Shown one piece after another: positions 59,726 through 64,000 of a stretch of 64,000 nt of DNA (position 1 is the stretch's first letter; each line of letters begins with the position of its first letter). A program made the translations under genes and the position numbers. This DNA is from Gammaproteobacteria bacterium. GTDB taxonomy: Bacteria > Pseudomonadota > Gammaproteobacteria > S012-40. The stretch spans positions 1 to 64,000 of the forward strand of contig JAOUHV010000006.1 in assembly GCA_029884425.1 (NCBI GenBank), given 5' to 3'. The notes beneath the pieces were generated by a model. That model did no database searches, was not told the origin of the DNA, and worked only from the letters and a program-made list of their open reading frames with translations.

Positions 59726-60100
59726 TTACTTGGGCACGGCAAAATCCAACGGGAAAACCAGCACAGTCTCTTTGCCCTGCCAGCGGACATAAACGTTTAG
59801 TTCATCCTGCAATGGATCGTTTACTAGCACTGCCCGTCGGTATACACCGACATGGCCGTCCTGTATCGCCTGCGTCCAGCGACCGCTAGACCCAATACGG
59901 AGATTCACGAATAAATCCTCTGCGCGACGCTTTCCCCGGTCAGCCACTACCAAAAACTCAATCATGCCTGGCTCAACAATTGGGGGGCGGGTTTCAATCT
60001 GAAAGATCATCCCCTCCCATTCCTGTGCGGGTGAAACCACCGCATTGCCAGGACAGCCCGTCAACGTCAAGAGCAGCAACAAAATCATGACCAAACGCAT
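59726..60100 (-). CDS. Predicted lipoprotein in the ccoG cluster (FixH/YtkA-like size)
   Basis: The 124-residue protein has a signal peptide with lipobox LTLTGC (Cys about residue 15) and a beta-rich domain (PPIVEPGMIEFLVVADRGKRRAEDLFVNLRIGSSGRWTQAIQDGHVGVYRRAVLV and ELNVYVRWQGKETVLVFPLDF). The pattern of a small Ig-like periplasmic domain recalls YtkA/FixH proteins, but the match is weak. The ATG at 60100 has GGAG ten bases upstream and lies four bases after the cytochrome gene stop. The function is unknown. Confidence 0.7.
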   Translation of the reverse strand: MRLVMILLLLLTLTGCPGNAVVSPAQEWEGMIFQIETRPPIVEPGMIEFLVVADRGKRRAEDLFVNLRIGSSGRWTQAIQDGHVGVYRRAVLVNDPLQDELNVYVRWQGKETVLVFPLDFAVPK

Positions 60101-60104
60101 AAAG

Positions 60105-60413
60105 TTAGAACTCCGAAGCATGTTTGTCCAGATAGGCAACCAAGCTAGCAATTTGTTGCTCGCTTAGCGTGTCCATTGATTCCATCAAACGATGATTTTG
60201 CATGCGTAGCACCACATTTCTCCACTCACCCTTCAGATGCGTGGAGGGTTTGGGGGGAGCATGACACTGACTGCAAAAATCCATCAGCACCTTAGCCCCT
60301 TCACTGTCGGGCTCAGGCAAATCTTTGCTGGGTGAGAATTGTTTCGGCTGCTCACAGGCAACCAACGCCAACACCGGTATACAGACCAGGAATGTATAAA
60401 GTTTGTTCCGCAC
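60105..60413 (-). CDS. Monohaem c-type cytochrome lipoprotein
   Basis: The 102-residue protein has a lipoprotein signal (cysteine at residue 20 in LALVAC), a haem-attachment site CSQCH (Cys47 and Cys50, His51) and a C-terminal helical part with methionines at 71, 77 and 80, one of which is a probable sixth ligand. It should be anchored to the periplasmic face of the membrane as a small electron carrier. The GTG start overlaps the stop of the upstream two-helix membrane gene (TAGTG). Confidence 0.85.
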   Translation of the reverse strand: MRNKLYTFLVCIPVLALVACEQPKQFSPSKDLPEPDSEGAKVLMDFCSQCHAPPKPSTHLKGEWRNVVLRMQNHRLMESMDTLSEQQIASLVAYLDKHASEF

Positions 60414-60826
60414 TATTTGTCTTTCTGCTGTTCTTGCTGTTTCAGTTTTTCTTCTTTTTTGCGTTTAATCACATGACGCAAATCAACCATGTAGTAAATC
60501 AAAAAGCTCATTACGATAACCCAGGCCGCGCCCGCTGGAATTCCCCAGTCAAACCAATCGCGCTCAAACCCAGGGCGATTTCCCCAAAAGGGGAACGTCA
60601 ACCCTACAGCAATCAGCAGCAACAGGAAAAACAGCGCAACAAACCAATATGGAATAGAGGTTTGACTTTCCTCCATCTCCTCCAGCATTTCCCAGTCTTC
60701 CAGGCCCCGTTTCGCACGTCGGGTCTCCTTATCTTTGTAACCGAATTGATCTTCCGGTATGTCGCCCCACTTGGTTTCCTGAGTGATTGCGTGTTCGTTT
60801 TTACCTTCGTCTGGTTTATTTGTCAT
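60413..60826 (-). CDS. Two-helix membrane protein of the ccoG cluster
   Basis: The 137-residue protein has a hydrophilic N-terminus (residues 1-55, acidic, with WGDIPEDQFGYKDKETRRAKRGLEDWEMLEEM), two transmembrane helices (about 59-80 and 98-117) and a basic C-terminal tail (RHVIKRKKEEKLKQQEQQKDK). No named family is recognised. It starts within the last bases of ccoG, with GGAG six bases upstream of the ATG at 60826. Its position between ccoG and a c-type cytochrome suggests an oxidase-assembly or electron-transfer role, but this is inference. Confidence 0.65.
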   Translation of the reverse strand: MTNKPDEGKNEHAITQETKWGDIPEDQFGYKDKETRRAKRGLEDWEMLEEMEESQTSIPYWFVALFFLLLLIAVGLTFPFWGNRPGFERDWFDWGIPAGAAWVIVMSFLIYYMVDLRHVIKRKKEEKLKQQEQQKDK

Positions 60827-62129
60827 ATTTTGCTCCGGCAACAAAATGTTGAATACGGAAATTTGTTGACCAACCATTCTCTGCCTTTGCCCGCACTACA
60901 AAACTGTGCAAGCCCGCAGGCAGATCACGCAAAGTCAAAAACAAATCTCCGCGCCCTGCACCTTCAAAGCGATAACTTGGTGCCGTCAATGCGAAATTTT
61001 CGCTATTCAATCCTTCAACGCTGACGTTAAGCGTCACTGGCTCTAGCATTTTGGACGCTAAATTTATGCGATATTCATTGACCTGCCCTTGAATCGAAGG
61101 ACCCGATTGATACACGGTCAAATGATATGGCTGGTATGTCCACAAACCCCAGGCAAACAAGCCTACACCCAACAGCCAAACTGGAACCACCCAGAACAAG
61201 CGTTCGCGTACCGAGGCCACCGATTTGGTTGGATCGTGCCGCATTCCAGTACGTGGTCCCAACTTGAACTTCAGCAATCCGGGCACACCTTTTTTGCTGT
61301 GCACATTATCGCAGGCGGTAATACATGCCCCACAATTGGTACAACTGTCGTACTGGGTTGTTGCTCGCGGATCGATTTCCACCATGCATTGCGTCAAGCA
61401 ATAACTGCATTTATCACAATCCGCACGCCGAGCTTCGTCATATTCAATGTGCAAGGTGTCTTTGGTTTTGAATAAATACTGCCACATTCGATATATGCAC
61501 ATATACCGACACATAAAATGGCGAATCACCGCCAAATTTACAAACGTGACCAAAACAAAAACTGTGTATATCCAGTACAGACTTGCTGCGAGGCGCTCAT
61601 CCGGTTGAAAAGTGATAAACGACCAAATCGCCTGGGGGGGGAAAAAATACAGCATGGGAATTATCGCCAGCAACAACGACATTGCCAGCAACTTGATCGT
61701 CAACAACAACCAGTTGCCCACATGATTCTTGTTCGCCGCCACCTTGGCACGATCGCGATTTTCCCAGTCCACCACCGCTCGTTTGCCCAGGTGCTGCGCG
61801 GTCAATTTATTAGCCAACGACGAGAACGTATTTTGTGGACACGCCCAGCCACAAAAGGCGGTCCCTACCGTTGAATACACCATGATCATGGTCGCCGCCA
61901 CCGCCAACCAAAAACCAAACACGATCTCAAAATCGGAAAACCATATTTGATGACCAAGAACCACAAACCCGGAGGACACATCTATGCGGAATAAGCCCGT
62001 CACCGGTATGGCAATGAGAATCAAAATTGCCGCAATTTGGGCTGCTTGACGCTTCCACGCCAGGCCGCGCGCGTCTTGAATGCCTACTTTATTTATGGGT
62101 ATTTTGGACAGAGCTTCGTTTGCTTTCAT
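60816..62129 (-). CDS. ccoG: Cytochrome c oxidase accessory protein CcoG (FixG/RdxA)
   Basis: The 437-residue membrane protein has about five transmembrane helices and iron-sulfur sites: CGWACPQNTF, CDKCSYCLTQCM, and CTNCGACITACD. The C-terminal part is an Ig-like periplasmic domain (ending GWSTNFRIQHFVAGAKYDK). CcoG/RdxA is thought to reduce copper for insertion into cbb3-type oxidase. The ccoNOQP oxidase genes are not in this window. It heads a leftward cluster with a two-helix protein, a cytochrome c and a lipoprotein. Confidence 0.92.
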   Translation of the reverse strand: MKANEALSKIPINKVGIQDARGLAWKRQAAQIAAILILIAIPVTGLFRIDVSSGFVVLGHQIWFSDFEIVFGFWLAVAATMIMVYSTVGTAFCGWACPQNTFSSLANKLTAQHLGKRAVVDWENRDRAKVAANKNHVGNWLLLTIKLLAMSLLLAIIPMLYFFPPQAIWSFITFQPDERLAASLYWIYTVFVLVTFVNLAVIRHFMCRYMCIYRMWQYLFKTKDTLHIEYDEARRADCDKCSYCLTQCMVEIDPRATTQYDSCTNCGACITACDNVHSKKGVPGLLKFKLGPRTGMRHDPTKSVASVRERLFWVVPVWLLGVGLFAWGLWTYQPYHLTVYQSGPSIQGQVNEYRINLASKMLEPVTLNVSVEGLNSENFALTAPSYRFEGAGRGDLFLTLRDLPAGLHSFVVRAKAENGWSTNFRIQHFVAGAKYDK

Positions 62130-62276: not shown

Positions 62277-62305
62277 TTGCGCAATAAGGTTCGTTCATAT
62301 ATAGT
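62277..62305 (+). promoter_or_regulatory. Predicted sigma-70 promoter of the 42-residue membrane protein
   Basis: TTGCGC and TATAGT are separated by exactly 17 bases about 64 bp upstream of the ATG. It faces away from ccoG. The 239-bp divergent gap contains no clear FNR/Anr box. Confidence 0.6.
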
Positions 62306-62368
62306 CGGGCGAGTCACTTTATAAAGTGCGGCTGTTTCCAAACTATACACATAAGAGGGGTGGATGAC

Positions 62369-62497
62369 ATGGTTACAGAGATCGGTATTAACATTATTGT
62401 TCCGATTTTGGTATTTGCCTTCATTATCGTAGGCGCATACATGATGTCTAACTGGGCATTCCAGGACGTGTTGAAGCGTCGCTCTAACGGCGAGTAA
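62369..62497 (+). CDS. 42-residue single-helix membrane protein
   Basis: The short frame begins MVTEIGINIIVPILVFAFII and ends SNGE, with one transmembrane helix (residues 5-26) and a basic end (VLKRRSNGE). GAGGGGTGG precedes the ATG by about eight bases, a promoter lies upstream and a strong terminator 24 bp after the stop, so this is a complete small gene. A nearby out-of-frame ATG at 62364 is less well placed. No family was recognised. The setting next to ccoG suggests a link to respiratory complexes, similar in size to CydX/CcoQ-type subunits, but this is inference. Confidence 0.72.
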   Translation: MVTEIGINIIVPILVFAFIIVGAYMMSNWAFQDVLKRRSNGE

Positions 62498-62520
62498 TCG
62501 TCGTCATTGCTAGACACAGA

Positions 62521-62546
62521 AAAACCCGGCTTAGCCGGGTTTTTTG
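62521..62546. terminator. Bidirectional terminator after the small membrane protein gene
   Basis: AAAACCCGGC-tta-GCCGGGTTTT followed by more T residues lies 24 bases after the stop. It also serves the opposite spermidine-synthase-like gene. Confidence 0.93.
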
Positions 62547-62561
62547 TTGGCCGAAACCGGC

Positions 62562-64000
62562 TTATTTTTTCGCCAGCTCCGGATCATGCGGATTTAGCTC
62601 CAATAGTCGCGCCTTGATATCGTCTGCATTATCAAAAGCCCCGGATGCCATTTCCAAACGCCACAGCATCTTCAATGCATCGACATGATCAGGCCGCATC
62701 TCCACGATTCGCATTAACGCCTGAGACTTGCTCAATCCCTGCTGCACCGCCTGATCCAGACTGGCGAACATACGATCGGCCATCTCAAAACTAATCCAGC
62801 GATCAATTGGATTGGCCCGATATGCCTGCTCAAGGAAACTGGTCGCCTCTTCCTCGTCACCGCTAAGTTTGGCAAACCAGCTCGCATAGATCATGCTGGT
62901 GGCCTGGTAGGCCCTGCTGAACCGGTCAATATCGGCCAGCTCAACCAGCTCCAGCGACTCCCCCGCTACGGCCAAATTTGGCCGAATCTGCAGCAAGAAC
63001 CCCAAGGTCTTGCGCAGATCTATCGACTTGCTGTAGCGCGCCTCAGGAATTCTGAACTCAATGACCGGCGCCCACTCATCCTGGGTCGCCACGTCAAAAT
63101 CAGGAATTGTCCCCCAATATCGACCCAACCAGCTCCAAGCATCCTCATTGGCGAACACCCGCTCATCATTCATATCAGCCTTGGCGATTATCGTGGACGC
63201 TTTCACTCCCCGATTGGTACCCACCAGCGCCAAACGAAATCCATCCGCGAATATTTCCGCGCGTGGAAAGGCCTGTTTGAACGTATGCAAAATAATTTTC
63301 AATGACTCAACATCAAACTGATTCAGCGCAATCCACTGAACAAACACACCGTTGTCATTTAGACGACTTCTTACTCGTTCAAACTGCTGTCTGGATAATA
63401 ATGCGCTGCGTCCAACCAAATCCGGGTGAAACAAATCACCAACAATCACATCGAATTTTTTGTCTGTTGTTTTTATAAATCGACGTGCATCATCATTAAT
63501 CACATCAATTTTCTTAACAACACCGTCATTGGCAAATTCAAATTCATTGCCTGCCGCATCTATCGCCGCTTTAGATAACTCTACTGCAGAAATATTCGAA
63601 TTCACAAAGGGCAATGCACCTGCCGCCGAAATACCTGTCCCCAAACCAAGAAACAATACCTGCTCCGCTGACGGCGCTAGCAACAAAGGCAACGAGCCCT
63701 GAATACGCTGCACTGTTATCGCCGTCGGTTCCGTTGATGCATCCATGCGCTGCAGATCCGATAACAAAAACCGATGGCCTTGCGTATTTTGAATAACATG
63801 CGTCACTGCCAGCGCATTTTCTTGAACACTCAAATCTGCCGATTTCGCCTGCGCACTTGGCAACAGTACCGAAACACTCGGCCAAACAACAAAGAACATT
63901 GCTGCAATACTGAGCAATCCTGCGGTCGCAAAATACCAGCGCGTTTTCACCCAGTATGTCGCCACCAACAAAACAACAATCATTGCCAGTACCAAACTCG
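62562..64000 (-). CDS. Membrane-anchored spermidine-synthase-like protein (5' end outside window)
   Basis: The visible part is about 479 residues with an open frame to the window edge, so the true start is outside; a TTG at 63995 is probably internal. It begins with hydrophobic helices, then a class I methyltransferase-like spermidine synthase domain (VLFLGLGTGISAAGA, INDDARRFIKTTDKKFDVIVGDLFHP, and LLSRQQFERVRSRLNDNGVFVQWI) and a helical C-terminal extension with TPR-like pairs. Membrane-fused family members often do not make spermidine. The window also contains speD, so a polyamine role is possible but not shown. Confidence 0.78.
   Translation of the reverse strand, partial: SLVLAMIVVLLVATYWVKTRWYFATAGLLSIAAMFFVVWPSVSVLLPSAQAKSADLSVQENALAVTHVIQNTQGHRFLLSDLQRMDASTEPTAITVQRIQGSLPLLLAPSAEQVLFLGLGTGISAAGALPFVNSNISAVELSKAAIDAAGNEFEFANDGVVKKIDVINDDARRFIKTTDKKFDVIVGDLFHPDLVGRSALLSRQQFERVRSRLNDNGVFVQWIALNQFDVESLKIILHTFKQAFPRAEIFADGFRLALVGTNRGVKASTIIAKADMNDERVFANEDAWSWLGRYWGTIPDFDVATQDEWAPVIEFRIPEARYSKSIDLRKTLGFLLQIRPNLAVAGESLELVELADIDRFSRAYQATSMIYASWFAKLSGDEEEATSFLEQAYRANPIDRWISFEMADRMFASLDQAVQQGLSKSQALMRIVEMRPDHVDALKMLWRLEMASGAFDNADDIKARLLELNPHDPELAKK

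Follow-up and report, generated by a model that had tools for sequence, protein, structure and literature searches.

A small gene in the 64,000-nucleotide stretch of DNA analysed here (the window), encoding a 42-residue protein, is genuine and conserved, and it tracks a divergent oxidase cluster in gammaproteobacteria. As judged from sequence, and by analogy with CcoM, CcoQ and CydX, its product is fairly likely to be either a small subunit of the divergent oxidase or a partner in its assembly. The features of the locus are summarized in Table 1.

Table 1. Features of the small gene and its neighbourhood in the window
Feature	Position	Strand	Basis
Promoter, TTGCGC-17 bp-TATAGT	62277–62305	+	Read directly; layout recurs in relatives
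Shine-Dalgarno sequence, GAGGGG	62355–62360	+	Read directly, 8 nt before ATG; equivalents in relatives
CDS, 42-aa one-helix membrane protein	62369–62497	+	Profile and sequence matches, purifying selection, predicted helix
Bidirectional intrinsic terminator	62520–62545	.	Fold energy on both strands
Cluster gene C0, 859-aa fused MFS/spermidine-synthase-like protein, continuing past the window end	62562–64000	-	NF037959, 87.6 bits, over cut-off
Divergent CcoG paralog, divergently transcribed neighbour	60816–62129	-	TIGR02745, 119.6 bits, cut-off 316.7
Cluster gene C3, membrane protein, weak below-cut-off cytochrome b561-like match	60413–60877	-	
Cluster gene C13, small c-type cytochrome	60105–60413	-	One CxxCH, read from sequence
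Cluster gene C2, short lipoprotein-like protein	59726–60151	-	No Pfam match

The small gene is under purifying selection

The product, MVTEIGINIIVPILVFAFIIVGAYMMSNWAFQDVLKRRSNGE, is encoded between the ATG at 62369 and the TAA at 62495–62497. At E up to 0.1, this single sequence matches 11 of the 13 genomes of the same order; for nine, counting the window's own genome, the E-value is 1.8e-9 or better. In comparisons among nine close family members, pS ranges from 0.60 to 1.06 and pN from 0.08 to 0.33, and pN/pS is 0.09–0.26 for most pairs within the family, indicating that the protein is conserved while synonymous sites are near saturation. The window gene differs from its nearest relative at 21 of 25.7 synonymous sites and 7 of 91.3 non-synonymous sites. 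Counted by codon position, differences number 370, 132 and 805 at positions 1, 2 and 3, respectively. The synonymous-site bias that was expected of a conserved frame is thus present in relatives. The other frames lack such a pattern, except for the overlapping antisense frame, which mirrors it and is interrupted by stop codons in some relatives. That the frame arose by chance above a regulatory or RNA element, a reading to which its short length would lend itself, is already contradicted by this selection pattern, as its pN/pS is far below 1 and the antisense frame is not kept open in some relatives; an Rfam scan of the window, moreover, gave no match, and we regard such an origin as extremely improbable.

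Distant family members are 31–41 residues long and have few features in common beyond [IL][IVT]P...F and a polar C-terminus; they were counted in the family on the basis of a profile match together with a shared position. Weak matches in G040, G149 and G241, for which synteny is not established, were left out of the membership. Weak matches of profiles A1 and A2 (see below) in G069, G071, G222, G245 and G326 were treated as false, as they lie inside large frames or contain stop codons.

The small gene carries its own expression signals

The original prediction described a promoter with 17-bp spacing, a strong ribosome site and a bidirectional terminator, and all three are present. The −35-like element (TTGCGC, 62277–62282) matches the consensus at 3 of 6 positions and the −10-like element (TATAGT, 62300–62305) at 5 of 6, with a 17-bp spacer between them. 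Although this site was absent from the output of a generic promoter scan, the layout TTGnnn-17-TATAnT recurs in 18 of 30 relatives, compared with a mean of 0.13 and a maximum of 2 in mononucleotide-shuffled controls. The −10 box of the relatives is positioned 54–99 bp upstream of the start codon, and six of the relatives lacking the layout have TAGACT upstream. A GGAGG-like site precedes the small gene in nearly all relatives. The terminator palindrome, AAAAACCCGGC-TTA-GCCGGGTTTTTT, folds at −19.3 kcal/mol on the forward strand and −18.1 kcal/mol on the reverse strand (z about −5 on both) and can be shared with the convergent gene that ends at 62562; a similar terminator follows the small gene in most relatives.

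The small protein is predicted to form a single helix

A hydrophobic core is visible in the sequence of the small protein, and AlphaFold, given seven sequences, predicts one helix spanning residues 2–39 with a mean pLDDT of 93, in agreement with the single-helix fold proposed earlier. Together with the selection pattern and the gene's own signals, this prediction strongly supports the view that the small gene is a self-contained unit encoding a membrane protein with one helix.

Searches of Pfam, NCBIfam and PDB sequences, with the single sequence and with alignments as queries, returned chance-level matches only, and no known oxidase subunit emerged as similar in sequence. In particular, the Pfam and NCBIfam models for CcoQ and CcoS (FixQ, FixS) have no significant match in the family, the best FixS match being one A3 member at the chance level of E=0.79. 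Among PDB sequences, A1 has no match at E up to 10 and A3 has chance-level matches only. The small protein is apparently a member of a conserved, unclassified family.

The small gene lies in a divergent oxidase cluster

The small gene was described originally as divergent from ccoG. The divergent orientation is correct; the neighbour, however, is not an ordinary ccoG, since its score falls far below the curated cut-off (Table 1), and it is therefore a divergent paralog. The small gene is one of roughly 20 genes forming a conserved group that surrounds a divergent CcoN/CcoO-like oxidase. The divergent CcoN is encoded past the window end on the same contig (G000:C6:70490-71899) and scores 225.6 bits against a ccoN cut-off of 583.15. 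Because both CcoG and CcoN lie below their equivalog cut-offs, the cluster does not qualify as a canonical ccoNOQP-GHIS locus. The CcoN/CcoO-like subunits lie about 8 kb from the small gene, and cytochromes, a sulfatase-modifying-factor-like protein and several membrane proteins are also encoded past the window end on this contig.

The canonical genes (ccoN, ccoO, ccoQ-like, ccoP, ccoG, ccoH, ccoI and ccoS) are located on another contig, G000:C37, where they were named from size, order and sequence, with additional Pfam support for ccoN. Given the presence of a second, divergent CcoN beside the canonical one, the divergent cluster probably belongs to what the literature calls the 'distal cbb3' type. 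In an alignment with Pseudomonas stutzeri CcoN, the divergent CcoN keeps the residues at the positions that we take to be the active-site tyrosine and the histidines of heme and CuB. The counterpart of the tyrosine is retained, and for this reason we discarded the idea that this oxidase is a nitric-oxide reductase (gNOR/sNOR), on which a literature search turned up nothing of use.

Further short genes occur in this genome. A second one-helix ORF of 48 residues (MIDIDNG...), also unclassified, lies outside the window between cluster genes C12 and C7 (L077:8599-8745, reverse strand; G000:C6:68598-68744), and equivalents of 41–44 residues beginning MIDxDNP or close to it occur at L126, L131, L147-L150, L152 and L153, members of another class included. 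Two short genes, G000:C6:73858-74388 and G000:C9:71413-71832 (both reverse strand), are similar to heme-copper oxidase subunit I in its C-terminal part only (PF00115 positions about 305–430).

The small gene co-occurs with the divergent oxidase

We examined 369 gammaproteobacterial genomes; 32 of them carry the divergent CcoN (E up to 1e-100) and are termed oxidase-positive. Profile A1 was built within the order and matches 28 genomes, 21 of them among the 32 oxidase-positive ones (p=1.4e-20; the Fisher test assumes that genomes are independent of one another, an assumption that related genomes violate). With the window's own family removed, A1 matches 18 of 29 oxidase-positive genomes versus 6 of 336 negative ones (p=2.9e-18). 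Profile A2 matches 35 genomes, comprising 27 of 32 oxidase-positive and 8 of 337 negative ones (p=6e-29, a value that is somewhat optimistic because A2 includes rows from some of the counted genomes). The link to a respiratory oxidase envisaged in the original prediction thus holds by co-occurrence and synteny, while the partner it points to is the divergent cbb3-like cluster rather than an ordinary cbb3 oxidase.

Among the oxidase-positive genomes missed by A2, the small gene was found by targeted search in G048, G155 and G362; in G180 the contig ends inside the cluster, and the oxidase of G047 is more distant (56% identity). After targeted checks, which were made mainly on oxidase-positive genomes and were left out of the p-values, the small gene is present in 30 of 31 genomes with a close oxidase. 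In G002 and G011, of the window's family, the oxidase is present and no convincing small-gene match was found. The small gene occurs with no detected oxidase in G012, G087 and G315, all fragmented MAGs, and with an oxidase fragment of only 83 residues at a contig end in G296.

The oxidase also occurs, at 66–79% identity, in a further class of the phylum, where the genomes read carry the surrounding cluster as well. Among 14 oxidase-bearing genomes of that class, A3 gives no convincing small-protein homologue; the small protein is therefore either not universally required or too divergent there to be recognised. A plasmid search for carriers of the divergent oxidase returned only matches below 60% identity.

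Synteny and alternative roles

Many cluster genes accompany the small gene also in distant families, and C0 adjoins it in many families. The small gene lies between CcoG and C0 in some families and directly upstream of C10-C8 in others. In several distant families (L059, L060 and L062-L065), C15, C16 and C22, which by eye are presumably rsmD-like, coaD-like and gamma-glutamyltransferase-like, are found upstream of it.

With a promoter and terminator of its own, the small gene stands outside the oxidase operon, which counts against an oxidase partner and would fit a small stress or membrane protein of general function whose nearness to the cluster is historical; small hydrophobic proteins of such a kind are common. 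The strong co-occurrence with the cluster over the 369 genomes and the synteny kept across families argue against such a general protein, which we consider unlikely.

The main alternative, itself rather unlikely, is that the small protein partners the C10-C8 pair, for example in heme or copper delivery, and not the oxidase core. C10 is a four-helix-sized fragment resembling the C-terminal part of CcoN, and C8 is a Cys-containing protein of about 170 residues. The pair is immediately downstream of the small gene in many distant families, and G012 and G087 have the small gene beside it with the oxidase undetected. However, a terminator often separates the small gene from C10, G422 of the other class carries C10-C8 without the small gene, and in the window's genome the pair is on a different contig (G000:C9) while the small gene still sits beside CcoG and C0. 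An association with the divergent oxidase itself is the preferred reading: the small protein is found almost wherever this oxidase occurs in gammaproteobacteria and is therefore probably its subunit or assembly partner.

DISCUSSION

We propose that the sigma-70-type promoter, strong ribosome site and terminator would yield a 42-residue single-pass inner-membrane protein, with a periplasmic N-terminus and a KRR-rich cytoplasmic C-terminus as suggested by the positive-inside rule. This protein would work with the divergent cbb3-like heme-copper oxidase, potentially through physical association and an effect on the enzyme. Most likely it would be an accessory subunit whose proline-containing helix packs against the oxidase core, as with CcoM, CcoQ and CydX; otherwise it may be a partner in assembly of the divergent oxidase.

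The likeness to these three proteins is offered as an analogy of function, not of descent. CcoM, a 36-residue cbb3 subunit of P. stutzeri that is important under oxygen limitation (PMC10433244) and was originally unannotated as an oxidase subunit (PMC9264385), is likewise very small and hydrophobic and is associated with a cbb3-type oxidase. In contrast, the partner oxidase here is of a divergent type, and the searches, which were made against PDB sequences, gave no similarity. CcoQ is also a small single-helix companion of cbb3 oxidases, but the small gene is a separate unit whose product has no family match, and a CcoQ-like protein of 69 residues is encoded in the canonical operon on G000:C37. 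CydX resembles the small protein as a one-helix small subunit, although it serves cytochrome bd, an enzyme of another superfamily.

Proximal and distal cbb3 forms have been described in Zetaproteobacteria and Sideroxydans, the distal oxidases being traced to Ducluzeau et al. 2008, and in iron oxidizers the second, divergent enzymes are reported to have a subunit composition unlike the textbook enzyme (PMC7029218, PMC8788666). The divergent oxidase is similar in being a second cbb3 form, of other subunit composition, beside an ordinary one; its placement with the distal type is our own, and the available text of those papers does not mention such a one-helix protein. It is a tentative proposal, a little short of even likelihood, that the distal-type cbb3 of gammaproteobacteria has an unrecognised family of one-helix subunits, possibly with a second one-helix protein (MIDxDNP) as well.

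If so, the known subunit list of the divergent cbb3 enzyme would be incomplete. A conserved small protein that tracks the divergent cbb3 cluster is a concrete candidate for a missing subunit, and the family alignment could serve annotation pipelines as the basis for a family model.
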